Assembly (NCBI GenBank): GCA_902384685.1
Contig: CABMCU010000007.1
Span: forward strand, 1-40,686
Direction of reading: 5' to 3'
Source: an uncultured archaeon
Lineage (GTDB): Archaea; Thermoplasmatota; E2; DHVEG-1
DNA: 40,686 bases
The position numbers were made by a program, and so were the translations under genes. How positions within the stretch are numbered: the stretch's first letter is position 1; the number at the start of each line of letters is the position of its first letter. The notes below the pieces were generated by a model. The model had not been told where the DNA came from, searched no databases, and saw only the letters and a list, made by a program, of their open reading frames with translations. This document shows positions 3,096 through 36,438 of this stretch, in pieces.

Positions 3096-4688
3096 CTATT
3101 TTGCTATAAATAATGCTTCTTTTGCATGAACCGTAAATGATTGTCCATCAGGTAATATCCCTGAATAATCATATGCAGTCGAGAGGCTCGGACAAATATT
3201 AACAATGACCCAGTAATTCTGAAACTCTCTGACGAACACGCCACCGTAATAATTGTGCGTCGAACCACTAATGACGCCTGGATTTGGATGCGCATATACT
3301 TGAAGCGAAGAATTTTGTATATCCCCTTTATAATTCTGGACTGGTTGCCCAAAGTCTGTGTCCATCATCGGATGGTACCCATTAATGATACTTCCAGTGG
3401 TCTCCTGTTCGAAAAACATCCAAGAATAGTACGCCTTTGAAATATCTGTTCCAATTGCAAGTAGAAAGCAGCCTATAGTGTATCTCATCCATTTCACCCT
3501 TTCATCATTAGGGGAGTCTATTGTACATCCGCTGTTAACTGCTATGATGTTCCCGAGTTGTGCCTGTTCATGGAGAAGATTAATCGGTACACATCCATAA
3601 TCCCATGAACCATCATATCCACCTGGCTGTGAGGAACTATCCCATCTCGCATGGATGAAACCTTCCCAGGTATGGATATGTGTTATTTGTTCACAGAACT
3701 GAGGAAATATCCATGCGTTTGGCATAATCATGTTACGGCTTGGAACAGAATTCAGTGCTGTCTTTACATTATGAATATGCGCTAGCATAAGAGTATTCCA
3801 ATTGTCTAGAAGGATCTGATCCCAATCTGAGAATGTTAATGTTCTTCTAAGAATAGTATCACCGTAATCGCTGTGCATCACCTTGGGATCTACACCTCCC
3901 CGGTCTAGCCAATAATATGCATCATCTAGAAACACACCGTCCGCACTTGGCGTGTCCTGAAGGAATTCGAGACACATAGTATTCGCAAAATAATCCGTCC
4001 ATGAGTTAACCATTACACTCGGATTCATGTAATACCCCTTATATGTGCCCTCATTTCTCCATATACGATGGTCAGAAGTTGTCCCATATATATCATGAAT
4101 AAACCAGTTCTCGTGAGTATTAATCACTGGCCATTCTTCCATCCAATCAGCCACCCAAATAAGATCGGCATATCCAATAATTTTTATATTTGGGTTGTAG
4201 GTTTTGATTTCAGACCCGTAATTGGTTGCCGCATCGCGGTTACAATCCAATAAATCAAAATGCTGTGCAACATACTGCCGATTGGCTGGGTTCTTCATCG
4301 TAAGGCTATATGCTATCGACATCTTCTGCAGTCTTCCAGACAATAAAGGAGGAGTATAAGTAGTAATATCGATATATCCGATGATAAATCGTGATGTAAA
4401 GTACGTCTTTGCAGTATCTTTGAAGTATGTGATATTCTGTCCAACAGTATAGTGAAGGAATTGAAGTGGTTTAACTATAGGAATCACCCATAAATCAACT
4501 GCATCGATGGTGATATATCCTCCTTCACCAGATCGATGGGTATAGCTGCCGAATATGAACCCTTTCTGTGATTCATACACATTGAAAGCTGAGGGATCTG
4601 ACCAATTACTTCCTGGTGTCACACTTACCTTAAAAAATAATAAAATTGTCGCAAAAACAATAACTTTCTTTCCCCAATTCTTTTCCAT
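3096..4688 (-). CDS. Secreted putative glycoside hydrolase (GHL-like TIM-barrel family)
   Basis: N-terminal signal-like segment; ADGVFLDDAYYWLDRGG, LMLAHIHNVKTALN, NYWVIVNICPS and C-terminal KEALFIAK resemble putative glycosidase (GHL) proteins. Confidence 0.55.
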   Translation of the reverse strand: MEKNWGKKVIVFATILLFFKVSVTPGSNWSDPSAFNVYESQKGFIFGSYTHRSGEGGYITIDAVDLWVIPIVKPLQFLHYTVGQNITYFKDTAKTYFTSRFIIGYIDITTYTPPLLSGRLQKMSIAYSLTMKNPANRQYVAQHFDLLDCNRDAATNYGSEIKTYNPNIKIIGYADLIWVADWMEEWPVINTHENWFIHDIYGTTSDHRIWRNEGTYKGYYMNPSVMVNSWTDYFANTMCLEFLQDTPSADGVFLDDAYYWLDRGGVDPKVMHSDYGDTILRRTLTFSDWDQILLDNWNTLMLAHIHNVKTALNSVPSRNMIMPNAWIFPQFCEQITHIHTWEGFIHARWDSSSQPGGYDGSWDYGCVPINLLHEQAQLGNIIAVNSGCTIDSPNDERVKWMRYTIGCFLLAIGTDISKAYYSWMFFEQETTGSIINGYHPMMDTDFGQPVQNYKGDIQNSSLQVYAHPNPGVISGSTHNYYGGVFVREFQNYWVIVNICPSLSTAYDYSGILPDGQSFTVHAKEALFIAK

Positions 4689-6579: not shown

Positions 6580-8394
6580 TTAGGTGATAATAATCGTCTT
6601 GGAAATCGAATCAATTTGGCCGTTTTCATTTGTTATAGTAAGTCTCACGTTATAAGAACCTGGATTCCTATATATATGGCTTGCTTGATTTATTTGGTTA
6701 GATCCATAGATAATTCCGTTATTGCGTCCCATTGAATCGTAGGCGATTTTTCCGTTATCATTCATCATCCACCAACTCACAAGACCATCGGTAGTAATAT
6801 TTCCATTGTAGTTCTTCTGTATTTCTGTTCCATTTAGGGTGCGGTTATAAATCCTCATGTCTTTAATAGAGCCATTGAAAGCTTCTGACCAAACTGGAGG
6901 AGCCATTGCTCCAATCCGTTTAGGAAACTTATTTCCCGCGGGAGTAATATTTTTACTTTGGGTTTCTTTTAGCCAACCATCTATATAGAATCCAACATTT
7001 GAACTGTTCCATGTAGCTGTCACATAATACCATGTGTATGGTTTAAAATCAGTTAAAAACGTATGCTGTTCTAGTTGAGTATTATTTGTAAGAACGAGTC
7101 GTAACATATTATTAATGATGATAAAACTTGGGTGTCTTTCTCCATAATCAGCGCTCGTTGTAAAAATTGTTCTCGTTCCAAGTAATTCTTTTGGGTAGAT
7201 CCATGCTTCGATTGTTCCTTCAACTGGTTGCATATTTGAATCATTTCCGCAATCAATATAGTTATCGATTCCGTCAAAATCTAAACCGATAGTGTTTCCG
7301 TAACTAATGTTTCTATCTCCGAAGTCCCATTTCCATTCAATAATTCTGCCTTCTGGACTTGTGGTGTTGCTTGTGAAATAGATGAGGTCATTTAAATTAG
7401 GAATTTCTGGTGAGTAGGTGAAATTTGCTTTAGGTGGTGTATGATAATAAACATTTATCCATTGATGTATTTCTCTATATGCATTGCTAATTTTTTGTTT
7501 TGCTATATCGATATAATCTTTATCTCTGTTATATTGAGGTGTTTGCATTTTATTTAACAAAAAGGTCAGTGTGAATGTGCCGTTTCTATTTATAATAAAA
7601 CTCTTGGAAGAATAATTTATATCCATATGATTTAGTGTGCAGTTAGTTTTATAAATAAACCACATATTTTGCATAGCATATTCGATTTTATTTGCTGACT
7701 CATTATAAACTTGAGTATAATTGATAAGCCATAATTCAACAGTATAATTAATAGTTTTATATTCATGGTTCATGATTTCTATGATTCTTGTAGTGTTAAC
7801 TCCATTGGTCAGATTCTTTGAGAATTTTTCTGAATTTTTATCTAACCCTACAAGGTAGAATTCTGTGAATTTTTCTCCTGTTTTTGGCATCAATATAATA
7901 TAGGAAGATAATATCACAGCTATTATTATTGAGATGATTATTACTATATTAAGCGTATAATTTAATTTATTTTGCGACTTTTGGAGAGGTAGATGAAGAG
8001 ATATCCTGAATCGTTCATCCGGACTGATTTTCATCCAGCGATACACAGCAACAAACCCAATGCTTATAATAAAAATGCAAATAGAGAACAGGACAGATTC
8101 TAAGCGTATTCCCCATGGCGTATAATTTAACACGAAACAGAAAAGGGGAACAAGAGCTATCGAAAAACCAAAGCTTAACGAAATTCTTTCTATTATATTC
8201 ATACCTTGATTGTTTTTCCGAGGAGGGAATAATGCATAAATTAGTATATACCCTGGTATGAAAAGAATGAAGGGAAAACCTAGTATAATCCTAATGAATC
8301 CCTCAATATTGAACAAGGATATCGGGACTAATATAATACTCCATAGCATACATAGAATTATATCGATTGGTAAACTCTTATATAGAATATTCAT
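6580..8394 (-). CDS. DUF1616-like membrane protein with C-terminal PKD domain interrupted by a LamG/ConA-like domain
   Basis: N-terminal FILFIPGYILIYALFPP...IERISLSFGFSIALVPL; PKD halves IIEWKWDFGDRNISYG and ASHIYRNPGSYNVRLTITNENG separated by LDFDGIDNYIDCGN...GTIEAWIYP...WYYVTATWNSS...IKDMRIYNRTLNGTEI. Confidence 0.75.
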   Translation of the reverse strand: MNILYKSLPIDIILCMLWSIILVPISLFNIEGFIRIILGFPFILFIPGYILIYALFPPRKNNQGMNIIERISLSFGFSIALVPLFCFVLNYTPWGIRLESVLFSICIFIISIGFVAVYRWMKISPDERFRISLHLPLQKSQNKLNYTLNIVIIISIIIAVILSSYIILMPKTGEKFTEFYLVGLDKNSEKFSKNLTNGVNTTRIIEIMNHEYKTINYTVELWLINYTQVYNESANKIEYAMQNMWFIYKTNCTLNHMDINYSSKSFIINRNGTFTLTFLLNKMQTPQYNRDKDYIDIAKQKISNAYREIHQWINVYYHTPPKANFTYSPEIPNLNDLIYFTSNTTSPEGRIIEWKWDFGDRNISYGNTIGLDFDGIDNYIDCGNDSNMQPVEGTIEAWIYPKELLGTRTIFTTSADYGERHPSFIIINNMLRLVLTNNTQLEQHTFLTDFKPYTWYYVTATWNSSNVGFYIDGWLKETQSKNITPAGNKFPKRIGAMAPPVWSEAFNGSIKDMRIYNRTLNGTEIQKNYNGNITTDGLVSWWMMNDNGKIAYDSMGRNNGIIYGSNQINQASHIYRNPGSYNVRLTITNENGQIDSISKTIIIT

Positions 8395-8752: not shown

Positions 8753-10291
8753 ATGTCTACCGATATAGAAAAATCACTGGGAACCGTTGCAAAGGGGGCA
8801 GGTGTAATATTTCTTGGTTTGATATTTGGTAACTTGCTAGGTATAATAAATCAATCTTTGTTAGGAAGATTTTTAGGAGTCGATATATATGGGACATTTA
8901 ATTTAGCTTTCTCTCTGGTGACTATTGCTTCAGATATTGCGGTATTTGGTTTATTAGGGGGTTTATCTCGTTTTATACCCTTTCATTTGAAAAAAAGAGA
9001 AAAGGATATTGTAAAAAGTTCCATCAATTTTAGTTTTAGATTTGTATTGTGTACAAGTATATTAATTGGGATTATCTTGTATGTTTTGTCTGGGTATTTA
9101 TCAGTTAATATTTTCAAAGAAAATAATCTTGATATGATATTAAAATATTTACTAATTAGTATACCTCTCCTTTCTCTAGCAACTATCCTAGGAGCAATAA
9201 TAAGAGGATTTAAGGCAGTAAAATACAAAGTAGTTGTCAATGATATCGGTATGAGTCTAAGTAAAGTAATTATTTTCATTTTATTCGTCGGGATTGGTTA
9301 TACGTTATTCGGAGCTATTGCTGCGTATATCTTAGCATTAATTTTCGTAATATTTACTTCAATGATTATTTTTAGAAAAAAATTATTCCCTGATCATTCA
9401 ATTTATAAAAATGTTCCAATCGCAAAAAATTTACTTGCTTTCTCATGGCCCCTCGCGCTTACCGGAATAACAAATCTTTTTGCCACTAAAACAGATGTCC
9501 TTTTTATAGGGTTTTATTTAACTTCTAAAGATATAGGTATTTATATGTCTGCTTTAGTAATTGGTTCATCTTTAATATTTGTAGGCACTGCTTATGAATA
9601 TATTTTTTTACCTGTTGTCTCAGAGCTTTATGCAGAAAAAAAAATAAGTGACCTAAAGATTCTTTTCAAATCGGCATCAAAATGGATGTTTTTATCAATT
9701 TTAATAATATTATTATATATAATATTATTCCCAAAAGAAATTATCACTCTGCTATATGGAGCTGAATATTCAGAGGGTTTCTTAGCTCTGATTATTTTAT
9801 CATTTGGTATTTCTATGAACGCATTTACAGGTTTGACTGGAAATATGTTGGTTGCAGGCGGTTATACAAAATTAAATCTAGTAACAACAGTTATTGGTGC
9901 AATTGTTAACTTATCCTTAGATATTTTATTAATCCCGATTCTTGGTATTATAGGTGCTGCTATCGCCACCAGTGTTTCTTATTCTGCTAGTAATATTTTT
10001 TCTTTACTATTTGTTTATAAAACTTCAAAAATACACCCCTATAACATGTCGTATCTAAAAATGATATTAGTGAGTATTGGAGTCCTGATCATTATCTATC
10101 TAATAAAGACTTATATTGCTAGCTTTTTGTATTGGCCAATAATGATTATATTACTTGGTTCTCTGATGTTATTTTTATTTATTGGGCTCTTACTTCTCAC
10201 TCATGTTTTAGATGAAAATGATAAATTTATTTTAAGTATCATTGAAAAAAAATTAGGTATAAAACTTAATTTTATCCGGAAATATATTTAA
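8753..10291 (+). CDS. Wzx-type polysaccharide flippase (MATE/MVF superfamily)
   Basis: 512 aa, about 12-14 hydrophobic helices; N-terminal KGAGVIFLGLIFGNLLGIINQSLLGRFLGVDIYGTFNLAFS typical of oligosaccharide flippases. Confidence 0.85.
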   Translation: MSTDIEKSLGTVAKGAGVIFLGLIFGNLLGIINQSLLGRFLGVDIYGTFNLAFSLVTIASDIAVFGLLGGLSRFIPFHLKKREKDIVKSSINFSFRFVLCTSILIGIILYVLSGYLSVNIFKENNLDMILKYLLISIPLLSLATILGAIIRGFKAVKYKVVVNDIGMSLSKVIIFILFVGIGYTLFGAIAAYILALIFVIFTSMIIFRKKLFPDHSIYKNVPIAKNLLAFSWPLALTGITNLFATKTDVLFIGFYLTSKDIGIYMSALVIGSSLIFVGTAYEYIFLPVVSELYAEKKISDLKILFKSASKWMFLSILIILLYIILFPKEIITLLYGAEYSEGFLALIILSFGISMNAFTGLTGNMLVAGGYTKLNLVTTVIGAIVNLSLDILLIPILGIIGAAIATSVSYSASNIFSLLFVYKTSKIHPYNMSYLKMILVSIGVLIIIYLIKTYIASFLYWPIMIILLGSLMLFLFIGLLLLTHVLDENDKFILSIIEKKLGIKLNFIRKYI

Positions 10292-10341
10292 ATCGTTCAG
10301 AATTTTTACATGTATATACTGGTAATTTCAAAGATGTTATT

Positions 10342-11556
10342 TTAAAGGGATAATTTAATTGTATAAAATAGTTTAACTCCAATTAGAATGATTCTGCTGA
10401 GGGGGGCAATAATTTTTTTCTTTTGATACGAATATATTGTAAGAAGAAATAAAAAACCATTTTTATACTTGATTTTAATCTCAGATCCAGTTTTTCCATT
10501 CCAATATAAACCAGGTCCAATTCTTTTTATTCTGGAGGGATTTTCTCCTGGTAAATTTTTCAGAGTTTTCCGTATATTATCTAAATCTCTACCAGTTGTT
10601 GATGATAGATAACCAATTTCTGAGGCAATGTTTAAAGCTGTGGTTGTAACCGCCCCTCCAGGCCAACATAAAAATTTAACTTTTTTATCAAGTTTTGTTT
10701 CAATAATATTTTTTGATACTTGTAGCTCATAAAAAATTCGTTTTTCATATTCTTCTTCTGATTCATATCTTTCCTCTAGTTGATTTTTTTCCTTGTATTT
10801 TCCTACAATCTCAAATAATTCTTTTCTCCAATTTTCAGATCTGAAAAAATCATTGCCACCTTTTTGTGTTACATAATTTATCATGTATTCATTCAGATTT
10901 TTATCAGGAAAAAAACGTTTTATTCCAATGGCTCTACCAGATTCATACACAGGTTGTCCGTATCTTACAATTTTTTTATTATCCATTTGTAAAAAGGGTT
11001 TTTCGGTTGGATTTTCATTCCATGTCATCCAAATGTATGAATCGTCAGGATTTCGAAAATCAATAATATTATTATTAATTGGGTACCATGTATGGGACAT
11101 AGTATGCGATTGTATGTCTACAAACCCTTCAGTCTCCATTTTCCGCAGCTCGTTCCAGGATAAATAACCACTAGTTTCTAACTCATCAAGTTTTACATCT
11201 TTTTTCCACACATCATCTAAATTTTTCCTAATGATATTTCTAGGATCAATAAATTCAGGATTGACATAAATTGTAGCTTGAAAACCATATTTTTTCAGTA
11301 AAGGATAAGCAAATACCCAATTGTCTAAATAGCTATCATCAAAAGTAAGGATAATCGAATTCTTTGGTAATCTTACGCCATTTTTCATGTAGTCATATAA
11401 GTGTTGTAAAGAGATAGTATGAAATTTTTTTTTTTGCATCCATCTTAATTGATTCTCAAAAATCGGATAAGGGCAAATCAAGTTATTCCATTGCCACATA
11501 TTGTTTTGAATTCCAATACTATGATACATAATTACAGGTACACCTGGCTTATCCAT
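10342..11556 (-). CDS. Polysaccharide deacetylase family protein (NodB fold)
   Basis: VIMYHSIG, ILTFDDSYLDNW, QSHTMSHTW, FLCWPGG motifs. Confidence 0.85.
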   Translation of the reverse strand: MDKPGVPVIMYHSIGIQNNMWQWNNLICPYPIFENQLRWMQKKKFHTISLQHLYDYMKNGVRLPKNSIILTFDDSYLDNWVFAYPLLKKYGFQATIYVNPEFIDPRNIIRKNLDDVWKKDVKLDELETSGYLSWNELRKMETEGFVDIQSHTMSHTWYPINNNIIDFRNPDDSYIWMTWNENPTEKPFLQMDNKKIVRYGQPVYESGRAIGIKRFFPDKNLNEYMINYVTQKGGNDFFRSENWRKELFEIVGKYKEKNQLEERYESEEEYEKRIFYELQVSKNIIETKLDKKVKFLCWPGGAVTTTALNIASEIGYLSSTTGRDLDNIRKTLKNLPGENPSRIKRIGPGLYWNGKTGSEIKIKYKNGFLFLLTIYSYQKKKIIAPLSRIILIGVKLFYTIKLSL

Positions 11557-11585
11557 TTCATACTCCTCGAGAACAAACAGAATAA

Positions 11586-11829
11586 TTATAACATTAATAA
11601 TTTTTCAATTTCTTTTTTCGGATCAATTTTTGGTTTCCAACCCAACAACTTCTTTGCTAATTTTCCTTGATTTATTAGGCAGTATCTCTATTAATCTAAA
11701 ATTATTTTGGGAATTATATCTAACGAATGTAGTGACTTCCGCCCCTAGATATACGAATTTTTCTATTAAATGACTGCCTATAAAATCGCCGGCTCCGGTT
11801 ACTAAAATTTTTTTATTTCTTAAAGTCAT
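11586..11829 (-). pseudogene. NAD-dependent epimerase/dehydratase (SDR) with large internal deletion and frame change
   Basis: N-terminus NKKILVTGAGDFIGSHLIEKFVYLGAEVTTFVRYNS in one frame; the overlapping frame gives the C-terminal NQGKLAKKLLGWKPKIDPKKEIEKLLML*. Confidence 0.8.
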
Positions 11830-11881
11830 TAAATCATTACCTGAATATTTTCAAGTTTATTAATATCTTTGCTGAATTCAT

Positions 11882-12988
11882 CTATTTTAATGAAGATGCA
11901 TAAATTTGTATTAATTTTTTTAACCATTCATCATAGTTAAAATGTTTATTGTAATAATTCTCTGATTTCCTACTAAAATCTAGGCGTAAATTTTCGTTAT
12001 CAATTAATAACATTAATTTATTTTTAAGAGCATCTTGATTATCAACCGGAAAGAGTAATCCATTATCACCATCGGTTATAATATTATTTATACCTTTGGT
12101 ATCCGATCCGATTATCGCGAGACCGTTATACATTGCTTCAAAAAGGGAGATGGATTGCGCTTCAAAATGAGATGGAATAACATAGATATCAGACATCTTT
12201 AAATATTCTAACTTTTGTTTCTCATTTATATAACCTAAAAATTTTATATATTCTTTAAATCCCATCAAATCTACTCTTTCATCTAAAGATTTCTTTAAAG
12301 GTCCATTACCACAAATTATTAATTTAACTTTTTTATTTTCTACATATTCCAACCCCAAATTCATAAAAGCATTAATAAGATTATCAATTCCTTTAATTTT
12401 TTTAATTGCACCCAGATAAAGAATAATTATATTATTTTTTAAATTATATTTCTGTAATAACTCAATTTTGTTTTCCTGTGAATGTTTAAAAGGTATTAAA
12501 TTCGGCATAACAATTATTTTTTTTTTGCTACGTTTTTCATATTCTGTTTTTATATTTTCAGAAACAGCAATAATAGTATCAGCACTTTGAAAAAAAAGTT
12601 GTTGTATTTTTTTTCTCGTCCAGGTATACATTCCTCCCCCATGAATAAAGATGACGTAAGGTATTTTATAATTTTTATAAGCAAGATATATAGGAAAAGC
12701 AAACTGTGAATTACTAGTATAGGGGACGTGGATAACATCAATTTGATGTTTCAATTTTTTAAGTGCTAAGAGAGTATGAAAAATCATAGTTGGAACAACA
12801 AATAGTAATGATCGTCTCGATAATTTTACGTTAGTAATATTTTCATTTTTCCAATCATATTCAAACCATGTAAAAACCCATATTTTATGTCCTTGAGCAG
12901 CAAGTTCCTGCATAAGGTGATAATTAAAAAACTCAACACCACCATCGCAATGTGGATATATAGCTGGGGAAATAATAGCAATGTTCAC
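11882..12988 (-). CDS. Glycosyltransferase family 4
   Basis: GGVEFFNYHLMQELAAQGHKIWVFT, LYLGAIKKIKGIDNLINAF, VIPSHFEAQSISLFEAMYNGLAIIGSDTKGI, DNGLLFPVDN. Confidence 0.9.
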   Translation of the reverse strand: MNIAIISPAIYPHCDGGVEFFNYHLMQELAAQGHKIWVFTWFEYDWKNENITNVKLSRRSLLFVVPTMIFHTLLALKKLKHQIDVIHVPYTSNSQFAFPIYLAYKNYKIPYVIFIHGGGMYTWTRKKIQQLFFQSADTIIAVSENIKTEYEKRSKKKIIVMPNLIPFKHSQENKIELLQKYNLKNNIIILYLGAIKKIKGIDNLINAFMNLGLEYVENKKVKLIICGNGPLKKSLDERVDLMGFKEYIKFLGYINEKQKLEYLKMSDIYVIPSHFEAQSISLFEAMYNGLAIIGSDTKGINNIITDGDNGLLFPVDNQDALKNKLMLLIDNENLRLDFSRKSENYYNKHFNYDEWLKKLIQIYASSLK

Positions 12989-12992
12989 CTAA

Positions 12993-14753
12993 TTAAACTC
13001 CTTTCAATATATAAATACTACCAAGATCATAGAATTTATCAATATTTTTTTTATCTTTATAAGATAAAATCTCATTAATTATATTGTACTGTTCTTCCGA
13101 TTTTATTTTTAAATTTTCTCTTTGATTTAACAAGGGTATCTCATTTATCACGGCTAAGGTAGAAGAATTGTGAGTATAAACCATTTTATTAAGATCTAAT
13201 CCCCCTATCCTCTGTGGAATTCCTTGTATATCGTAAACAGCTGCAACTATACTTGGATATCCATAATATAATTTAGGAAAATTAATTTTTTCTGCAATTA
13301 AATATTCTTTTTCTGTAACGACACTACCATCGGTAACCACTTTACCTGTATAGTAATCAGATTCAATATTATATAAATTAAAAATAATGAAAGAAATAAA
13401 AAAAACCATAAGTATTTTTTTTAACATTGGTTTTTTAATATTTATGAGTAATGCAATTAAAGGAAATATTCCAAATATCCATCCGTATGTTAATAGTCTA
13501 TCTGGATTTATTGATGAATTCAGGACAAAGAGTGATAAAAAACCATAACCTAAACCAAAATAGAATAATATTGAAAAAGAGATATCAGTGATTTTTTCAA
13601 TATTTTTTATAATAATTAGTTTCATTAATAAAATTAATGAAAACAGAATATGAAAGAAAAGAAAACCATAGAAAATTATTTTACCAGTTAAAGTGACTAT
13701 GGGCAATCCTAATCCTATCACACTTGAATATGAGCCAGAGATTGATGGACTAATAACGTTTTCAATATTACCTAAAATGAACATTCGAGTCCAATCACCT
13801 CCTTTGAGATAAACCCAATAAGAGATTACTGATATTAAGACAATTAATGAAATTATCTTAATATCAAAGATATCTGAAAATTCTATCTTTTTTTTAATTA
13901 ATAAACGGTAAATAAACGGGACTACAAAAGAGACAGTAAAATATACACACAAGAAAACTAATAGTATCAGACTAGCAAAGTGATGAGAAAATAAAAGAAC
14001 CGGAATTAAAAGTATTACTAAACCAATATACCGAATGTCATTTTTTCTTTTATAAATAAAAAGAGTATAAACGAATAAAATCATAATAAAAAGACCAAAA
14101 GTTTCTCTGACAAAAAGCGCATCAAAATTCACGAATTGGGGAATAAAACTAAAAAAAAGACACGACAACAAAGCATATTTTTTTTCTTTGTACGCAATAT
14201 ATGATATCAGATAGATAGGTAAAACAATAATAGATGATATAAAAGAAGGAATGTATTTTGCTATCAGCAAGATATCTATTTTTGTGATTAAAGAGACTGC
14301 ATCAGAAAAAAGATGAATCATTGGCCATCCGCTAACACCCGGCTCTATAGTGAAATGATTCGTATATAATATAGTTTTTAAAAGATTATAATCGATATAA
14401 GAATCACTTCCACGTAATCCTAAATATCCTATCTGATAAACCAGATGCAGGAAAAAATAAATAATAAAAATTTCAATAAGAACAAAAGTGTTATTTTTCA
14501 AGAAAAAAATCTGATATAAAATAGTACTAACCATTAAAAGGATTGATAACCAAAAAATTAATATAATATATTCATTCGGTAGGTGATAGAATAAATTAAC
14601 GAAAAATAGTAATGCACTCCAAATAAAAATTATTATAGATAGTTTTTGTTTTTGAGTTTCCATTATGACATTATGTTTCGCTGAATTTGTTAAAGAAATA
14701 TCATTCATCAATTGATTATCCAACCATATTTTCACTTCGATATTATTTACCAA
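12993..14753 (-). CDS. Multi-pass membrane protein, GT-C/dolichyl-phosphate-mannosyltransferase-like
   Basis: 586 aa with many hydrophobic helices; 4-bp spacing to the downstream GT4 gene; glycan cluster context. Confidence 0.5.
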   Translation of the reverse strand: MVNNIEVKIWLDNQLMNDISLTNSAKHNVIMETQKQKLSIIIFIWSALLFFVNLFYHLPNEYIILIFWLSILLMVSTILYQIFFLKNNTFVLIEIFIIYFFLHLVYQIGYLGLRGSDSYIDYNLLKTILYTNHFTIEPGVSGWPMIHLFSDAVSLITKIDILLIAKYIPSFISSIIVLPIYLISYIAYKEKKYALLSCLFFSFIPQFVNFDALFVRETFGLFIMILFVYTLFIYKRKNDIRYIGLVILLIPVLLFSHHFASLILLVFLCVYFTVSFVVPFIYRLLIKKKIEFSDIFDIKIISLIVLISVISYWVYLKGGDWTRMFILGNIENVISPSISGSYSSVIGLGLPIVTLTGKIIFYGFLFFHILFSLILLMKLIIIKNIEKITDISFSILFYFGLGYGFLSLFVLNSSINPDRLLTYGWIFGIFPLIALLINIKKPMLKKILMVFFISFIIFNLYNIESDYYTGKVVTDGSVVTEKEYLIAEKINFPKLYYGYPSIVAAVYDIQGIPQRIGGLDLNKMVYTHNSSTLAVINEIPLLNQRENLKIKSEEQYNIINEILSYKDKKNIDKFYDLGSIYILKGV

Positions 14754-15147
14754 TTCAACTATTTTTCTACTTTTTAATGAATATGATTATCAATCAATTG
14801 AAATTGTTTTTATCAGAACTAGAAAATCTATGTACAGTAATTTTAGATATTTTTTAATGTATTATTGATCTATTTGTCTCGAGGATATATGAGAGATTGA
14901 CGATTGTTTTTGTAGAAAATAGGCCAGATATGTTATTATTCAGATTAAATGACAGCCCCTCTGTAAAAAGGTGGCATTTTATATCGCACAAAATGTTTAA
15001 GAAAAATTTATCAATAAAATATATTAGAGTTGTTTATGTGTATGTAATACTTTCAGTTCTTTATAGTCGCACATTATTTCCTATCGCAACCGAAAAAAAT
15101 CTTTATATCCTCAAATATATTAGATAAAGTTAAAAGGTAAAAAGAAA

Positions 15148-16185
15148 ATGATATTTAAAAAAATATTTATTTTTATTAAAATTTTTGATATATTCGGTAT
15201 TAATTCATTTTTTAGACAATTAAATAGGAAGAAATGTATTATTTTATGGTACCATGGAATATGTGAAGATAGTGATAATGATCTAGAAGATTATGATGAA
15301 AGGCACATTCAAAAATCAATATTTCGACAACAATTAAGATTTTTAAAACAAAAAGGGTATATATTTATGACAATGTCTGAGTTAATAGACACATATAAAA
15401 ATAAAAGAAAATTGGGAAAAATAGTAGTTTTAACCTTTGATGACGGCTTTCGAAATATTATTACACATGCATATCCCATCATGAAAGAATTTAATGCAAA
15501 AGGATGTGTATATCTGGTATCTGGATTAGTTGGAAGCGGAAAATTATTATGGACAGATTATATTGAAACGATGATAAAGAACTCAAAAAAGGGAAAATTT
15601 GAATTTATTTTTAAAGGAGAAAAATTAGTCTATTTAATGAATGATAAAAAATCATACCAAAATACCATGCGAGATGTAAAAAATAAACTCAAAACACTTT
15701 CAAATAAAGAGAGACTTAATCATTTAAAACAGTTCAATAATATTAAAACAACAAATTTTCCAAAGAAATTTATGATTGCTGATTGGAAAGAAATACAAAG
15801 TCTAGATATGAAAATTCTCGAGGTAGGATCTCATACAAAGAACCATCCTAATCTCTCAACATTATCATCATCAGAAGAATTTGAGGAAGAACTTAAAAAC
15901 TCCAAAGATGAAATTGAAAAAATGGTTGGCTATGATATAAACCATTTTTGTTATCCAGCAGGTAAATATAATGAAGATATTATTCGATATTTAAATGAAT
16001 ATGGATATAAATCTGCAGTCACTATAACACGTGATTTTAATAATAAAAACACTAATTTGTATCAATTAAAACGCATAGAAGCTTCAGAAAATTTTTTAGA
16101 ATTTAAATTTTTAATAAGTGGAACTTGTATATTTCTTTCTAAGTGTAAATATATTTTTTTTCGAAAAAAAAATGTGAATTATTAA
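15148..16185 (+). CDS. Polysaccharide deacetylase family protein
   Basis: ILWYHGI, VVLTFDDGFRNI, EVGSHTKNHPNLS, FCYPAGKYNED. Confidence 0.85.
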   Translation: MIFKKIFIFIKIFDIFGINSFFRQLNRKKCIILWYHGICEDSDNDLEDYDERHIQKSIFRQQLRFLKQKGYIFMTMSELIDTYKNKRKLGKIVVLTFDDGFRNIITHAYPIMKEFNAKGCVYLVSGLVGSGKLLWTDYIETMIKNSKKGKFEFIFKGEKLVYLMNDKKSYQNTMRDVKNKLKTLSNKERLNHLKQFNNIKTTNFPKKFMIADWKEIQSLDMKILEVGSHTKNHPNLSTLSSSEEFEEELKNSKDEIEKMVGYDINHFCYPAGKYNEDIIRYLNEYGYKSAVTITRDFNNKNTNLYQLKRIEASENFLEFKFLISGTCIFLSKCKYIFFRKKNVNY

Positions 16186-16398
16186 ATCTTATTATTAAAA
16201 CTTGATGTTAGACCAATAATACCTTCTTTTTAATTATAGCTGTTTGGGAGGTTATTTAATTAAGATAAAAATTCTACAGTTTCCTATCGTATGAAGAAAA
16301 GAAAGTAAAATATTTTTTAGAAAAAAATACTATATTTTAATTATTATCAAAAATTATTTATTTCATATCTAATTAATACTAGTGTCCGAACGAGAGAG

Positions 16399-17445
16399 TT
16401 ATTTATCTCTTATTTTTTTAATTTGTTGTGGTAAGTTAAAATATTTATACATATTATAACCCATTCGAAAAGCAAACGAGAAAGGAAAGACATAAGAGTA
16501 TATATTTTCGTAAGAACACCCGAAACTTTTTTTGTATTTATAAACCGTTTCATTAGGATCATTAGGAGTCTCCCCGAAACATACTGTATCAAAATTTATA
16601 TCTGAAGCAAATCGTATACTTTGCCAACACAAATAAACATCTAATTTATATCGCGCTCCTAAATTTCTATCTATCGCTATATGTCTTAGATATACTGTTC
16701 TTGATGGTGGGTAAATAAAGAGTAACAATCCTCCATGGACTTTTTCATCTCTACACAATAATATTATTCGCATTTCAGTTAAAGAATATGTATCCCATAA
16801 TCTCTCAAAATGAGAGAAATGATAAGGAATCCTATTTCTATATTCTAGATTCATTTTATAATACTTATAAAAAAATTTAAGATCATCAATTGAAGTAGCT
16901 TCTCTAATTGTAAATCCATCTTTTTCAAATTTTCTAATACTATTTCTTGTTTTCCATTTAAAATTTTCCTGCCAAATTTTTTCAGGAGGATTTTCTTTCA
17001 AATTAAGGACGAAATTTCCAGTTCCACGAAAGAAGGGATATGGAAGAGAACTATTTTTCTTTAGATAATCTTTTACCTCTTGATTTATTGTGGTAATCAT
17101 GACAAAAGAATTTTTATCCTTTCTTGAAATCTCGATGATTTTCTTTATTATTTCTTCTAAATGATTAAAATCTTGTTTACCTATTAATAGATGTCGATAA
17201 TCTGAAGGAGATATCGGTATTAATCCTCTAAATCCTTTTATGGTATTTTCACAAAAGGGACATATTGCAATCACTTTGTCATCAAAATAAATCAGATAAT
17301 AATGTAATTTAGAGTTAAAAGAATTTTCAATAATATTTTTCCATTTTAAAGTATGAAAAAAACTACCGCCATCAGTTTTTTTGTTAAATTCCTCCCAATC
17401 ATTTTCATTAGAATGATTTAATTCTTCAATGTTGTAAATAGTCAT
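16399..17445 (-). CDS. FemAB/GNAT-like acyl or aminoacyl transferase
   Basis: GSFFHTLKWKNIIENSF, VIAICPF, NFKWKTRNSIRKFEKDGFTIREA, HGGLLLFIYPPSRTVYLRH, DTVCFGETPNDPNETVYKYKKSFG. Confidence 0.7.
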   Translation of the reverse strand: MTIYNIEELNHSNENDWEEFNKKTDGGSFFHTLKWKNIIENSFNSKLHYYLIYFDDKVIAICPFCENTIKGFRGLIPISPSDYRHLLIGKQDFNHLEEIIKKIIEISRKDKNSFVMITTINQEVKDYLKKNSSLPYPFFRGTGNFVLNLKENPPEKIWQENFKWKTRNSIRKFEKDGFTIREATSIDDLKFFYKYYKMNLEYRNRIPYHFSHFERLWDTYSLTEMRIILLCRDEKVHGGLLLFIYPPSRTVYLRHIAIDRNLGARYKLDVYLCWQSIRFASDINFDTVCFGETPNDPNETVYKYKKSFGCSYENIYSYVFPFSFAFRMGYNMYKYFNLPQQIKKIRDK

Positions 17446-17596
17446 TTTTTCAAACCATTAATATTAAGTATTTGTTGGTATTAATATTATATTCATAACT
17501 TATATCGAAATATAGGGTTTTTAAGGTTTTCTTAATATGAAGATTATCTCTAAAAATCATAAATGAAGGCTTTATACATAAAGATGATATTACTTT

Positions 17597-18694
17597 ATGC
17601 TAAAAGACTTTGAGAAAGAAATTGCAAATTTTTTTGGAACTGAGCACGCAATTGTAACAGGTTCAGGAAGAATTGCTTTACAGATTGCACTGCAATCTTT
17701 TGAACTTTCAGAGGGAAATGTTATCGTCCCAAACCTTATCTGTTCTATGGTACCTCAAACTATAATTTCTACAGGATTGACTCCCCTCCTTGTTGATCTA
17801 AATAAAGATTTATCATTAAATGTAGATGTTTTAGAAAATGAAGTCAATCAGAATACAAAGGTGCTTCTTGTCAATTATCTTTATGGTTGTCCTACTGATG
17901 ATATCAAAAAATTGATGATTTATTTAAAAGATAAAAATATGTTAATTATCGAAGATGTGGCTCAAGCATTTGGATTAAAAATAAAGGGAAAATATGCGGG
18001 AACTTTTGGTGATTTTGGAATTCTAAGTTTTCCAAAACTTTTCTTCCCATTTTTTAGGGGTGGAGCTATAATAACTAACGATGAAAAACTTGCTAGAAGA
18101 GCATATTCTATTCGAAAAAAAACTCAGACAAAACCAAATTTATTCTACATTATGGCGGAATATATTTATTATAGATCAATGAAACACCTTCCAAAAGTAC
18201 TAAAAAAAAGATTAACCTCAATAAATACTACTCCTCGAGATTCTACTAAATTATATGAACGCAAAGAGACTTCATCCCCTTATCATCTCCAAAATTTAAC
18301 TAATTTTGAAACTATGATTGGAATTCAAACACTTCATAACCTTAAACGGTTAATAGTAAGTAGACAAAAAATTATTGAAAAAATATATTCAATAATATTA
18401 AATAGTAATAATTTACATCTTAAACCTCTCTTCCCCTATAGAGATGATTATCTCTATTTTAGAATACCTGTATTTGTCAAGAATGCTAGTATTCAGAAAT
18501 GGAGAAACTCTTTTTATAAACAAGGTGAAATTATCAATATGATTTATCGCCCTCTTTCAAATAATACCCTACTTCGTCATAAATGTGTATTATTGAAAGA
18601 TTATTCTAATTCTGAATATTTATCCGCCAATCTTCTACCATTACCTGTCACCCCTAACGTAATAAAAATTTTAAAAAAATTAGACACTACATAA
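17597..18694 (+). CDS. DegT/DnrJ/EryC1/StrS-family aminotransferase
   Basis: GSGRIALQIALQSF, VIVPNLICSMVPQTIISTGLTPLLVDL, IIEDVAQAFG, FGDFGILSFPK, GGAIITND. Confidence 0.85.
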   Translation: MLKDFEKEIANFFGTEHAIVTGSGRIALQIALQSFELSEGNVIVPNLICSMVPQTIISTGLTPLLVDLNKDLSLNVDVLENEVNQNTKVLLVNYLYGCPTDDIKKLMIYLKDKNMLIIEDVAQAFGLKIKGKYAGTFGDFGILSFPKLFFPFFRGGAIITNDEKLARRAYSIRKKTQTKPNLFYIMAEYIYYRSMKHLPKVLKKRLTSINTTPRDSTKLYERKETSSPYHLQNLTNFETMIGIQTLHNLKRLIVSRQKIIEKIYSIILNSNNLHLKPLFPYRDDYLYFRIPVFVKNASIQKWRNSFYKQGEIINMIYRPLSNNTLLRHKCVLLKDYSNSEYLSANLLPLPVTPNVIKILKKLDTT

Positions 18695-18759
18695 ATGACC
18701 GTTCTTCATCATAAACAAGGGGACTTCACAGATTCGGGTTTGGATATTTTTACAGAGGT

Positions 18760-19090
18760 TATTTTAGTAGTCGTAGATTTCTAACATATGTCAACACAAT
18801 ATTATTTCTTTATTGACGGCACTTTATTTAAAATTTCCAGATCCCAGAAAATTCCATATAGGATGTCGCTTGAATAGGTCATAGGAAAATGCTCTCATTA
18901 TCAAATGTAATGCTTGGGAGACGCTTATTGTCGGAGTGAATTACACGACAGTTTAAATATAGTCAGGCCTCATACTCAGTTCGATGATTACGATGTTATA
19001 TCGTTGAACGATTTCACATAAAATATTTTTACAAAGTTTTTTTCTTCTTTTTCCCAAACATATTGTAACTTTTCTTGGAGCATTATTTAA
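18760..19090 (-). pseudogene. Degenerate IS200/IS605-family TnpA (Y1 transposase) remnant
   Basis: Minus-strand frame: GKRRKKLCKNILCEIVQRYNIVIIELSMRPDYI*TVV*FTPTISVSQALHLIMRAFSYDLFKRHPIWNFLGSGNFK*. Matches my memory of the TnpA pattern MPDHIHLLV...PPTxSVSxALxLxKGxSSxxLFKRxP, with several stops. Confidence 0.7.
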
Positions 19091-19245
19091 GATGGAGGAG
19101 ATTCTGACCTATCCTATGGTAATCGTTAAATAAACTCATAATTTTGCCACTGGACAGATATTTCATACTCCTACCGAAGCGGGCACATCCGTCATTAATT
19201 AAAACCAATAAGTCTTGAAAGAAAATGAAACGTATATCCAACAAA

Positions 19246-20646
19246 CTAAAGTATGGCGTCTTCTTGCTGGTAGTGTGTTAAAAAGGGTGAGATTTTAGAT
19301 ATTACAAATCTATGCTTGCCAGATCCTGTTAAAGGAATCGTATCCATCAATTGAATAACAATAGTCATATCTTCACCACATTTTCCATGAATAACTTTCA
19401 ATAATTTTTTCTTTTCATTTTCAGTAAAAGAATCATCAACTACTAATTTAATAATTATTTCTCTATTATTTTCTTGTAAAACTTGAAATTGTTCTATTCC
19501 ATTTACATATGTTCTGAAAAGAATAGTCCAAAAAGTCCCAGTAAAATATTTTCCATTTGTTCCGACAATTACATCAAATGTTCGCCCCTCCACCTTTTCT
19601 AAAAGAGGTAGTCCTCTCCCACACTCACATCCTTTATCAGAAAAGATACCAATATCCCCAATATCATATCGAATAAATGGAAAACAGTAATTATCCAAAT
19701 CGGTAATAATAATTTTCCCAAGTTTACCAGGTTTGCAAGGATTTCCTTCTTCATCGAGTATCTCAACAAAAATATTTTCAGAACTAATATGCAAGCCTTG
19801 ATGAGCCATACATTCTTGTGCTATTGTCCCAAACTCTCTACTGCCATATAATTCGAAAACCCTACATTGAAAAACTTTTTCAATTTTTTCTCTTTGAAAT
19901 TGAAATAGAGTTTCTGCAGAGCTTACAACACCATTAATCTCGGGTATTTTTATTTTTTTTTCCTCTAAATAATTTGCAAACAAATATAATGCAGAAGCAT
20001 AACCAAGTATAATTTTAGGATTAAATGAAATTATTTTTTTTGCATAATTGTTCATCATTGCTGGATTTAAATTATAAGAGGATAAAAACAATGTAGGAAA
20101 GATAAAGTTCGTTATTTGATTTTTTACTCTTGTTATGATAGTATTATTCATCTGAGAACCCCAAAGAAATGCCTGTTTATCATATCGATCAAATTCTAAC
20201 CATTCTATACATCTCAAGGATGCTGCTTCATTTAAATAATCACTCCTCGTAAATCGTTTTTTCTCTTTGTAAAATACTAACTTTTTTCCAGTAGACCCGC
20301 TTGTCATATCAACAGTTAATTCTGACGGTTTATATAATTTTGATAACAGTGTTTCTCTATTTTTATCTATTATTTGTCTGTTTAATAATGGAATTTTTCG
20401 AAAATCATCTATAGAAATGTCGTTTTCAACATTAATTGCATTATTGTCAAAAAGAATTCTATAGAAAGGTACATTCTTATAAGCATGTCGTAAAATATTT
20501 TCCAATCTCGACCATTGAAATTTCTTTAATTCCTCTCCAGAGAGCCATTGGGTTTTTCTTAATTCATCTAAACATTCGGTAGTTTTATAATTCCTTACTC
20601 GTTCATATATTGAATATATAAATCTTCGTGGGAAAATAGATACCAT
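19246..20646 (-). CDS. PaaK/CapK-like adenylate-forming ligase
   Basis: LENILRHAYKNVPFYRILFD, DMTSGSTGKKLVFYK, FELYGSREFGTIAQEC, FIRYDIGDIG, LTGSGKHRFVIS. Confidence 0.9.
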   Translation of the reverse strand: MVSIFPRRFIYSIYERVRNYKTTECLDELRKTQWLSGEELKKFQWSRLENILRHAYKNVPFYRILFDNNAINVENDISIDDFRKIPLLNRQIIDKNRETLLSKLYKPSELTVDMTSGSTGKKLVFYKEKKRFTRSDYLNEAASLRCIEWLEFDRYDKQAFLWGSQMNNTIITRVKNQITNFIFPTLFLSSYNLNPAMMNNYAKKIISFNPKIILGYASALYLFANYLEEKKIKIPEINGVVSSAETLFQFQREKIEKVFQCRVFELYGSREFGTIAQECMAHQGLHISSENIFVEILDEEGNPCKPGKLGKIIITDLDNYCFPFIRYDIGDIGIFSDKGCECGRGLPLLEKVEGRTFDVIVGTNGKYFTGTFWTILFRTYVNGIEQFQVLQENNREIIIKLVVDDSFTENEKKKLLKVIHGKCGEDMTIVIQLMDTIPLTGSGKHRFVISKISPFLTHYQQEDAIL

Positions 20647-20656
20647 AAACTAACAA

Positions 20657-21799
20657 CTATTTCTGATATTCTTTATTTTTAATAAGTTGAATCTCATTAA
20701 ATAACTTTTCATATCCATCTAATATTCTGTCTAAATTGTGTTCTTTTTCTACATATTTTCTACTTTGTGCTCCCATTTTATTTCTCAAGTGGTCATTTTT
20801 AAGAAGTATATCAATGTTTTCAAATAAATCATCTAAATTCTCTACGTGTATCCCTAATCCATGTTTACATATTATTTCATCTGGATCAAAACCAAATGAA
20901 ATCACAGGGATAGAATTTCCCCATGCTTCAAGAAATGTGTTTGGAAAACCTTCAAATGCTGAAGTATGTACAAGGAGCGAAGACATTCGATAAAATTCAT
21001 CTATTTTATTGTGTTCTACAAAACCGATGAATTCTAAATTTTTTATTTTATCGGCTGCCTCTTTTATTCTATTGAAATATTCGAGTTCTATACCGGCAAC
21101 AATCATCCAAAAATTATAATTGGGAAAAATTTTGGCTAATTTTAAAAAAATTTCTACTCGTTTTCCTTTAGTTAATCTCCCAACCCAAAGAATTTTTAAA
21201 TTTGAAGATTTACGTTGTTTAAGTATTTTTTCAGATTGGAGATATAAATTTTTAATAATTCGGCCGTCTCTACCAATTTTTTGCTTCAGTAAATTTTTCT
21301 GATGATTTGTTTGACATACAATTATTGATGAATTCTTTACTCCATATCTATAAAAAATATTTTTCAGATTATAAGGAGTCGAGATATCCAAATTACTAGT
21401 AACATTCTTGTCGGATGAGGCGATAAATAAAAATTTTTTGTTTTTTAACAACGCATAAAAAGCAATTATACCTGTTAATGGTGAGTAACCCTTTTTAATA
21501 TAAATATCTGCATTTATTTTATTTAAAACTTTCATTAATTTATATAGATTTTGAGGAAGTAAAAATGTATAGCCACGTTTTTTATTATAAAAAGCATGAT
21601 GTATTTTGACATCATCAATTAATTCACTTGAAAGATTAGATTTTTCAAATGTAACAAAGAAAACATTATATTGTCTTTTAGCTAGATTCTTAGCAAGTAA
21701 ACTCATCTGTAATTCAGAGCCACCTACAATTTCACCGCTTCCAGTAAATATTGAATAACCAAATTCAGATAAAATACAAATTTTCAGTTTACTTGACAT
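20657..21799 (-). CDS. Glycosyltransferase family 4
   Basis: GGSELQMSLLAKNLAKRQYNVFFVT, ILWVGRLTKGKRVEIFLKLA, VHTSAFEGFPNTFLEAWGNSIPVISFGFDPD. Confidence 0.9.
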   Translation of the reverse strand: MSSKLKICILSEFGYSIFTGSGEIVGGSELQMSLLAKNLAKRQYNVFFVTFEKSNLSSELIDDVKIHHAFYNKKRGYTFLLPQNLYKLMKVLNKINADIYIKKGYSPLTGIIAFYALLKNKKFLFIASSDKNVTSNLDISTPYNLKNIFYRYGVKNSSIIVCQTNHQKNLLKQKIGRDGRIIKNLYLQSEKILKQRKSSNLKILWVGRLTKGKRVEIFLKLAKIFPNYNFWMIVAGIELEYFNRIKEAADKIKNLEFIGFVEHNKIDEFYRMSSLLVHTSAFEGFPNTFLEAWGNSIPVISFGFDPDEIICKHGLGIHVENLDDLFENIDILLKNDHLRNKMGAQSRKYVEKEHNLDRILDGYEKLFNEIQLIKNKEYQK

Positions 21800-21917
21800 T
21801 ATCAGTCCACTTTAAGTTTTTGTTTGAGAGATATTTACCTCTTTAATGACGTTTGTAAATTAAAGTAAATATATAACGATATCGAAATCCTACTAAATAC
21901 TAAATCAATGGCCATAT

Positions 21918-23153
21918 TTAGTATGCAGCATACGCCTCCCTATAAACATCCAAAATCCTATTGACAATATTATCCATAGTAAACAACTCTGAATATTGTC
22001 CAATTTTTTGATAATCCCATTTCTTGTCTAAAGCAAATAATAGTTTTTCTGATAATTCTTTGAAATCACTAGGATTAACAAGTAATCCATAATCATCAGA
22101 AGAAATGATCTCTGGAATACCACCAACTCTAGTGGCTATAACAGGTTTACCACACCCTAATGCCTCAAACATAACTGTTGGATTTCCTTCGTTTAGGCTT
22201 GGTATAACAAAAATATCACAAGCGTTCATCCAAAGGGGAATTTCATCATGGGGTTTCCCACCAAGTAATTTTATATGGTTCTCTAAACCAAGTTTTTTAA
22301 TTTGTTTAAAGAGTTTATTTTTTAATGGTCCAACTCCGATGATAAAACATATGATGTCTTTTTTGTATTGTATTAGTTCATATACTGCTTTAAGAAGAAA
22401 ATCATAACCTTTTACCTCTAATAAATTTCCTACACTTAAAATTATTTTTTTATTGAATTGTATTTGAAGATTTCTTTGGCATTCATCGGAATTTTTTTGG
22501 TTGAAAAGATTCCGTCTAAATCCATTTGGTATGATATGCACTGGAACATTACAATTTAACTTTTGTATATAACTTAAATTTTTTTGGCTAACAGTTATGA
22601 TCTGATTTGCACCATTTAAAACGTATTTAATCTTATTTTTCCATTCATCATCCTTAAAAGGCCACAGATATATATCAAAACCATGAGTTGTGACGACAAA
22701 TGGTTTTCCATATTTTTCTTTGAGTTTTGCCCCTACATATCCAGAACTCCAGGTAAAATGTGAATGAATTAAGTCGAATTTAATTTTATTTTTATTGATT
22801 ATATTTTCAACAATTTTGAAATGTTTATGGCCGAGTTGTTTATAATGATAATCAGTTGGAGCATATAAAAGAGATGTGGGAATGACGATGACATTTTCTG
22901 GTTTATCATCTAGACATATCATTGTTTTTTTTCTAAATCTCTTTAAATAATTTATTGGAAGAAAATTTGATATTTCTGCTATGGGATTCAAAGCTACTAA
23001 GACATAGATTTTATGAAAAAAATGTGATAATAAATCAACCTGATCTTTTACAAAAAAATTATACACTGGAGAAATAATAAGTAGATTTTTGTCTTGAAAC
23101 ATATTATCCAAGTATTCGCACCTTCTCATTAAATTTCTAGGTACTAGATTCAA
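21918..23153 (-). CDS. Glycosyltransferase family 4
   Basis: DLIHSHFTWSSGYVGAKLKEKYGKPFVVTTHGFDIY, ILSVGNLLEVKGYDFLLKAV, VIPSLNEGNPTVMFEALGCGKPVIATRVGGIPEII. Confidence 0.93.
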   Translation of the reverse strand: MNLVPRNLMRRCEYLDNMFQDKNLLIISPVYNFFVKDQVDLLSHFFHKIYVLVALNPIAEISNFLPINYLKRFRKKTMICLDDKPENVIVIPTSLLYAPTDYHYKQLGHKHFKIVENIINKNKIKFDLIHSHFTWSSGYVGAKLKEKYGKPFVVTTHGFDIYLWPFKDDEWKNKIKYVLNGANQIITVSQKNLSYIQKLNCNVPVHIIPNGFRRNLFNQKNSDECQRNLQIQFNKKIILSVGNLLEVKGYDFLLKAVYELIQYKKDIICFIIGVGPLKNKLFKQIKKLGLENHIKLLGGKPHDEIPLWMNACDIFVIPSLNEGNPTVMFEALGCGKPVIATRVGGIPEIISSDDYGLLVNPSDFKELSEKLLFALDKKWDYQKIGQYSELFTMDNIVNRILDVYREAYAAY

Positions 23154-34440: not shown

Positions 34441-36438
34441 CTACGTCCACCACGATGTACCATAATGATCCGAAATATACACCAGATCTAACACCGTGAT
34501 CTGTCCATCATTATCTACATCCTCACGAATCCACCCGCTCGCTCCAGTTCCACCATAATGATTTGATATAAGAATTAGATCATAAATCAAACAATTACCA
34601 TCCAGATTCACATCCCAGTTTGGTGCTAAGGAGAACATAAAAGTGGATGATAGCGCAATATTATTACTTGAATCAGTAGCTTGAATTCGGTAACTATAAT
34701 TCCCATGTATATTGAGACTTCGATTCACATAGTAGGTCGTTGTACTAGTTCTTTTCGTCATGGGTATGTTCGTAGTTGATTGATCTGGATTCGTAAACTT
34801 TAACACAGCAGATAATACTCCAACATTATCAGTTATTCCGCAGGTAAAATTTTCCCAGCCATATCCCGTCTGGGTATCAAGCGGATTTGAGATTATAACT
34901 CCCACTTGAGAAATTACTGGTAGGGTCGAATCTCCCGAACTTAAGATTTCATATGCCCCAATATCATAACCTGCACCTTGTGGCCGAGGTACTCCGCGTA
35001 TATCATAAAAAATAGTATAAATTTCATTTGCTGCATCAATACAAGGAGATGTTTCTTTTAAAAGAAAATTGTATGATGTATAATCCATAAATTCAGGGGA
35101 AGCGATAATTGCTGTTGTTTCTGCTAGATGCGTATCTCCTTCCCATCTTCCTAAATTTGTAACACCGTGTGTATAATTATAGGTGTTATTATACAAAAAT
35201 ACTATTCCCTCTCGCTCAGTCCAACTCATATGTGAAGATAAAATCTGATATGTTGTCAATCGTGTTTCATTTGTGACAAGAATATTATTGGCTATAATTA
35301 TCCTAGCAAGTGTAGTTCTATATGGATGAATAGCAATAGGTTTCCCATTACCTTGTCCAATAAAGATAGTATTATGTTTTATGGTTACATCCTTATAAGT
35401 GCTAGTACTCGATTCACTTTGAAGCTTTAGTTCTATCCCAGCTAAATAAATATTACTAGGATCCACAACATTGTCACAAGAAAGATTGATAATATTGTTA
35501 TAAATACTAATATTATCTATCTTTCCCCCATTAAATTCCCCACATATATTGATTCCTCCAGCGGAAACCGTGTCGGTAAGATATCCAAAGATAACATTAT
35601 TAAAAATATTTATATGTGATGCTGTTTGTCCGTTATATGTAGCTGAGTCAATATAAATACCCTCACCACTTGATGAACGATTTAGCTGCAGACTATTATT
35701 ATAAATCTGCCCATTCTTTACTCCTTCACCGACTCCTAAAACTATTTTATTACAATATCGGAAGGTATTATTATAGATGTAAAAATTCCTGACTCCAGTA
35801 AAAACGTTACTTTCTCCCATCGATTCTCCCATCTGAATTTTATAGAAATTGCAATCACGGACAGTGACATTCTCAATCCAACCAAGTGTTATTGCATCAT
35901 AAGTAAAGACTTGAACCCCTGAATATGTGACATTATTGAATTTACAATTTATAATGTTGATATCTTTAATTGGACCAGTTTCATCTCCGTTGACAGCTAC
36001 TGCATCCCTTGTGATATTTTCAATTGTCAGATCACGTAATGTTATATTATGATAGGGAGGACGGATTTCCAAAAAAGCACGATAAAGATTAAGGTTTTTT
36101 CCATTTCCATTAAGAATTACCTTTTCATGGTTATAGGCCATAATCGTGTATGGATTTGTTTTTGTACCGCTTCTATTGATCTGGAATCCATTCGAATTAT
36201 CCGCTATGACGTTATTATAGTTTCCAACACGAAGACAAATTGTATCTCCATTACTTGACATATCAACTGCTTTTCGTAAAGTCGCAAAAGGCTTTCCTAT
36301 ACGCCCATCACCAGTCGTGTCATTGCCTGTTATCGCAACAAACCAAGTAGATGGAGCCGCCGTTACAACAGGTATGAAAGCTGGAATTACACTAATCAAC
36401 AATAATAACGCAAGTAACCCTGATGTTAATTTATTCAT
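34441..36438 (-). CDS. Secreted right-handed beta-helix repeat protein with C-terminal dockerin-like domain
   Basis: Signal peptide; GNDTTGDGRIGKPFATLRKAVDMSSNGDTICLRVGNY; multiple NxxI/YNN repeats; C-terminal NWDVNLDGNCLIYDLILISNHYG...EDVDNDGQITVLDLVYISDHYG. Confidence 0.85.
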   Translation of the reverse strand: MNKLTSGLLALLLLISVIPAFIPVVTAAPSTWFVAITGNDTTGDGRIGKPFATLRKAVDMSSNGDTICLRVGNYNNVIADNSNGFQINRSGTKTNPYTIMAYNHEKVILNGNGKNLNLYRAFLEIRPPYHNITLRDLTIENITRDAVAVNGDETGPIKDINIINCKFNNVTYSGVQVFTYDAITLGWIENVTVRDCNFYKIQMGESMGESNVFTGVRNFYIYNNTFRYCNKIVLGVGEGVKNGQIYNNSLQLNRSSSGEGIYIDSATYNGQTASHINIFNNVIFGYLTDTVSAGGINICGEFNGGKIDNISIYNNIINLSCDNVVDPSNIYLAGIELKLQSESSTSTYKDVTIKHNTIFIGQGNGKPIAIHPYRTTLARIIIANNILVTNETRLTTYQILSSHMSWTEREGIVFLYNNTYNYTHGVTNLGRWEGDTHLAETTAIIASPEFMDYTSYNFLLKETSPCIDAANEIYTIFYDIRGVPRPQGAGYDIGAYEILSSGDSTLPVISQVGVIISNPLDTQTGYGWENFTCGITDNVGVLSAVLKFTNPDQSTTNIPMTKRTSTTTYYVNRSLNIHGNYSYRIQATDSSNNIALSSTFMFSLAPNWDVNLDGNCLIYDLILISNHYGGTGASGWIREDVDNDGQITVLDLVYISDHYGTSWWT

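Follow-up and report, generated by a model that had tools for sequence, protein, structure and literature searches.

The open reading frame considered here raises the question of whether one protein domain can lie within a loop of another, with its own segments in a rearranged order. The frame belongs to an uncultured archaeon of the DHVEG-1 lineage (Thermoplasmatota) and lies in a stretch of 40,686 nucleotides that was analyzed as a whole (assembly GCA_902384685.1, contig CABMCU010000007.1, positions 1 to 40,686; hereafter the window). An initial annotation, made from the sequence alone, proposed that a LamG block had been inserted into a PKD loop and circularly permuted, on a DUF1616 membrane protein. 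The layout that we favor is given below, with the evidence for each feature in brackets.

6580..8394, minus strand: open reading frame of 604 aa; DUF1616 membrane part first, C-terminal PKD domain interrupted by the permuted LamG cassette
7453..8346, minus strand: DUF1616, residues 17-314 (Pfam PF07760, hydropathy, sequon count)
7291..7437, minus strand: N-terminal half of the PKD domain, residues 320-368, ending in WDFGDRNISYGNT (Pfam, joining test, model)
6805..7287, minus strand: LamG core, here called segment B, residues 370-530, from LDFDGIDNYIDCGN to EIQKNYN (PF13385, alignment)
6694..6804, minus strand: permuted segment A, residues 531-567, from GNITTDGLVSWW to GIIYGSN (canonical-A profile, rotation test)
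6583..6684, minus strand: C-terminal half of the PKD domain, residues 571-604, from ASHIYRNPGSYNVRLTI to the end (Pfam, joining test, model)

A PKD domain on both sides of a LamG core

The host was rightly called a DUF1616 membrane protein. Pfam PF07760 matches it at 227.8 bits (2e-67, profile positions 5-307 of 307, above the curated cut-off), and by hydropathy its strongly hydrophobic segments are confined to the first 173 of the 604 residues, where they fall within DUF1616 at about residues 3-58, 67-92, 94-123, and 142-173. The DUF1616 ectodomain that follows them is rich in N-glycosylation sequons, and residues 171-604 hold 19 sequons where shuffling gives an expectation of 7.8. The Haloferax DUF1616 protein HVO_2173 is N-glycosylated via the AglB pathway (PMC8241124). 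Because of this precedent and the sequon excess, we place the tail on the outer face of the membrane.

The PKD domain is interrupted by a LamG-type cassette of 198 residues, at about positions 6694-7287; the block originally delimited, 6686-7298, was correct within a few residues. In the intact protein, PKD_4 is matched in two stretches that flank the LamG and together reach 45.0 bits. Scored alone, the halves give 23.7 bits (profile 4-48) and 30.3 bits (profile 53-81), with a cut-off of 27 bits in the test against PF18911 and PF00801. When residues 369-570 are left out, the joined halves yield a single PKD_4 match of 63.6 bits that covers profile positions 4-81 of 85, and we therefore regard them as one interrupted PKD domain. 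The insertion point is the loop following WDFGDRNISYG. Between these complementary halves lies a complete Laminin_G_3 domain (PF13385) at residues 374-526 (profile 1-151 of 151, 2e-21), which scores 76.9 bits where the cut-off is 27.6. The profile searches thus bear out the proposed insertion.

Structure prediction points the same way, returning a nested arrangement and not the sequential one that would have spoken against it. The AlphaFold model of the 286-residue tail, built on an alignment with more rows covering segment A, has a pLDDT of 89.2, a pTM of 0.82, and no segment below 50; a shallower alignment (36 other rows) gave a pLDDT of 81.6 and the same order of elements. PKD strands flank the insert on both sides at high confidence (7-10, 19-24, and 33-39 before the cassette and 248-256, 261-271, and 276-285 after it, in the numbering of the modeled piece). 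Judging from the sequence and this model, the PKD fold would close around the inserted cassette.

Segment order and its structural precedents

The PF13385 model spans core B alone, and GLVSWW lies outside it. A profile made from 16 segments that precede LamG cores in ordinary (A-B) domains, and from nothing else, matches residues 534-565 at 30.7 bits (E 1.4e-11 in a search of this single protein), and segment A carries the LamG-type motif DSxGxNNGxIYG. Against a second profile, built from ten domains of the ordinary A-B order, the cassette reaches 81.0 bits in its native order and 107.5 bits once rotated to A-B, a gain of 26.5, compared with at most 90.8 bits for rotated cassettes with a shuffled A (100 shuffles). 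A clear gain on rotation is seen in 16 of the 17 B-A cassettes, the window's own and its relatives. Chance resemblance of GLVSWW to a LamG start is ruled out by the canonical-only profile and the shuffles. The claim that the GLVSWW segment normally precedes LamG, and here comes after the strand set, is thus upheld by the profile match and the rotation test: A stands behind the core and not ahead of it as in the common A-B order, an order that membership in PF13385 does not require.

Sequential domains (a truncated PKD, a full LamG core, a degenerate second LamG start at GLVSWW, and another truncated PKD) would recall ordinary tandem (ABAB) arrays, where a GLV.W segment behind a core opens the next repeat. 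This reading is very improbable. Neither in the window nor in the other seven complete nested cases described below does a second core come after A. The two PKD halves complement each other and, once joined, make up nearly the whole domain, and the model has high-confidence PKD strands on either side of the cassette. In the alignment across different hosts, the link from B to A, EIxxNYxGNxxTxGLVSWW, is conserved without gaps. GLVSWW is accordingly no separate repeat in the nested homologs. We are confident that the LamG cassette is nested in a PKD loop and that its segments run in the order B-A, not A-B.

The term "permuted" holds relative to the A-B domains of Laminin_G_3 but should not suggest rarity, since the B-A order also occurs in pentraxins, in PDB 4DQA, and in Bacteroidota. 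The A-B domains, for example PDB 4QVS, have the same core and a homologous A, which there stands ahead of it (core at chain residues 49-217, A part at 7-14, the latter match being weak by itself). In 4DQA (BACOVA_03559 of Bacteroides ovatus), an A-like segment comes after core B, which is again the B-A order; 4DQA matches in sequence at 2e-8 and is also the top Foldseek match, although the protein is bacterial and no PKD domain was identified in it. A B-A profile found matches at 1e-20 or better in 40 of a sample of 248 Bacteroidota genomes; the majority of the matches listed extend through A, and most proteins in the loci examined have the architecture BA or BABA. Both orders are present in the phylum of a Pacearchaeota genome, and in that phylum two loci (L315 and L319) hold B-A LamG units that by eye seem to be inserted in repeat-type beta domains. 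A viral origin of the cassette is disfavored, as the B-A profile matched no viral contig, whereas A-B LamG domains are common in viral contigs. The permutation by itself is a common variant and less exotic than it seems at first sight.

Foldseek against the PDB returns 4DQA, dimethylformamidase, PAPP-A, and N-acetyl-(R)-beta-phenylalanine acylase first, and then pentraxins. The alignment to PTX3 (8pvq) is sequential over 218 columns (TM 0.77 by target, rmsd 3.4) and shows the pentraxin connectivity, with terminal strands after the helix; that to the neurexin LNS2 (LamG) domain covers 171 columns only. Pentraxins (SAP, CRP, PTX3) resemble the cassette in their jelly roll and in the strands behind the helix, which are the counterparts of A, but they are free-standing, oligomeric animal proteins. 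They nevertheless raise the alternative that the cassette is a true pentraxin relative that has always been B-A, the LamG likeness of A reflecting the common descent of concanavalin A-like folds. Pentraxins do align through the A region in both sequence and structure, and Pfam Pentaxin (PF00354) matches weakly across the B-A joint, at 17.4 bits where its cut-off is 25. We consider this origin unlikely, in view of a full-length Laminin_G_3 core that scores 81.2 bits against those 17.4 and of an A segment that has both the LamG-type motif and the match to the canonical LamG A profile.

The nesting itself also has a parallel. In the large subunit of dimethylformamidase (PDB 6LVB), a pentraxin-fold domain at residues 74-337 lies between the two parts of an Ig-like domain, residues 1-73 and 338-383 (PMC7686228). 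Our sequence comparisons and model would likewise put a jelly roll between the two halves of one Ig-like sandwich. The Foldseek alignments to dimethylformamidase and to the acylase 8HUY, where nesting is suggested by the Foldseek match alone, run over 368-387 columns at about 10% identity. Both differ from the archaeal protein in being soluble enzyme subunits whose host domain is Ig-like rather than PKD and which have no membrane anchor. Because 4DQA is B-A and dimethylformamidase is nested, there are solved precedents for both the order and the nesting.

In the nested B-A arrangement that we favor, a concanavalin A-like jelly roll with pentraxin-type connectivity is inserted in the loop between the WxFGD and HxY strands of the PKD domain. 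In the model, with support from the fold matches, A would supply edge strands of the jelly roll, much as the C-terminal strands do in pentraxins. The B-A order would bring the two ends of the domain together and may in this way fit it to the loop of another beta-sandwich. For annotators there is a caution here: Laminin_G_3 in Pfam describes the core only, and permuted or nested domains are consequently split or misread.

Gene context and putative function

The neighborhood of the gene is summarized by one further feature.

8753..23153 (no strand assigned): surface-polysaccharide gene cluster, with a flippase, group 1 glycosyltransferases, polysaccharide deacetylases, and a DegT-type aminotransferase

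In addition, in another genome of the class (G040), one protein combines a homologous module with a GH123 glycoside hydrolase. In our view, the most likely role is that of a glycan-binding module displayed outside the cell, which we put forward with middling confidence: DUF1616 would anchor the module outside the membrane, where it may bind a surface polymer or a glycan produced by the neighboring polysaccharide genes. Proteins and calcium are further ligands of LamG and pentraxin domains. The main rival to glycan binding is that the module serves as a structural spacer or as an adhesin for a protein partner, for example the S-layer. In archaeal surface proteins, PKD domains often act as spacers, and the LamG domains of neurexin and laminin bind proteins; the glycan gene context and the GH123 fusion favor glycans, and neither is decisive. 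We regard a spacer or protein-binding role as a possibility of some weight, though not a probable one.

Three other genes of the window, all on the minus strand, deserve mention. Near the split-PKD gene, positions 3096-4688 encode a putative glycosyl hydrolase of the GHL15 type. A secreted protein at 34441-36438 is by eye probably a parallel beta-helix and has a weak terminal match to type I dockerin, below the cut-off. A large surface protein at 37173-39848 combines DUF2341, an A-B LamG, three InlB-like B repeats, and cadherin/Ig-like domains.

Recurrence and probable exchange of the cassette

The same architecture is found in other archaea. A profile of four nested modules, run over 80 genomes of the class, retrieved complete nested PKD(LamG) modules in eight cases from six genomes, which include the window's (G000) and comprise one case each in G040, G072, and G073 and two genes each in G055 and G075; an additional nested case in G055 is cut by a contig end. 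The insertion point in PKD is identical in all of them, while the proteins that bear the module are diverse: DUF1616 proteins, a multi-pass membrane protein of 857-888 aa, the GH123-containing protein of G040, which has a weak dockerin match, and a protein of 2628 aa with parts that by eye are peptidase-like and beta-helical.

Nor is PKD the only host domain. In DUF1616 genes of G072, G073, and G075, the cassette sits inside the ectodomain of DUF1616 itself; Pfam DUF1616 is split in two stretches in G072 and G075, and the G075 halves, once joined, give one match of 274.8 bits. In G088, the cassette lies in a BACON-like domain whose score rises from 20.9 to 33.3 bits on joining. Other B-A units flanked by non-LamG sequence occur in G071, G089, G098, G345, and others. 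Our searches of the open literature found no description of a recurrent B-A cassette in several hosts, and nothing direct on permutation or nesting of LamG or PKD. What is new appears to be this recurrence, of one B-A cassette in the PKD domains of several unrelated proteins, in DUF1616, and in a BACON-like domain.

Several relatives have peculiarities of their own. In L044 (G040:C2), in unit 3 of the L038 array, and in the DUF1616 proteins of L152 and L154, the LamG core itself carries an inserted stretch of about 140-150 residues, in which no Pfam family scored above its cut-off; three levels of nesting are possible in these proteins. L038, a 2307-aa frame with four B-A LamG units, has a weak Hint/Vint-like (intein-type) match at residues ~1845-1916. 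A 500-aa DUF1616 protein of G017 (L011) has its C-terminal part (query 176-310) repeated in tandem.

The relationships among the bearers are not those of simple co-inheritance. Both the window's DUF1616 protein and that of G055 bear the PKD(LamG) tail, yet the DUF1616 part of the former groups with its own family and that of the latter with another (support 100/99). That the two are sister genes which inherited the tail together is disfavored (p-AU 0.012), and the tail is missing from the related DUF1616 proteins found within the same genus and family as the window. The single insertion point fits one insertion into PKD followed by shuffling of the whole module, which would have passed between proteins by recombination among homologous cassettes.

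There are also signs of copying. The PKD-nested cassette of G040 is closest to unit 3 in a row of four tandem units that another protein of that genome carries (51% identity over 347 columns; support 95/93). In neighboring genes of L152 (4693-4846 and 7406-7559 of that locus), the cassette ends, that is the A segments, share 95% DNA identity over 154 bp, and in L154 (4047-4182 and 6761-6896) they share 97% over 136 bp. The neighboring genes that share these segments, in G072 (95%) and G073 (97%), have different host domains, and at the protein level the PKD cassettes that are orthologous between G072 and G073 share 71% identity. Near-identical ends in neighboring genes are compatible with recent copying or with local gene conversion. 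Resolution in the cassette tree is poor, and most of the genomes are metagenome assemblies.

We tentatively propose, with confidence a little short of even, that the B-A LamG is an insertable lectin cassette. Its permuted ends, lying at one edge, would have led to repeated independent insertion in the loops of unrelated beta-domains (PKD, the DUF1616 ectodomain, BACON-like, and others) of archaeal surface proteins, and copying would have occurred by local gene conversion or from tandem B-A arrays. The cassette would have entered several host domains within the phylum, a history that the present data show in part. The relation between permutation and insertability is usually addressed with engineered proteins. 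If the cassette has truly been inserted repeatedly, the surface proteins of Thermoplasmatota offer a single permuted domain in a set of naturally occurring hosts, and with them one could test directly whether a domain becomes insertable through circular permutation.
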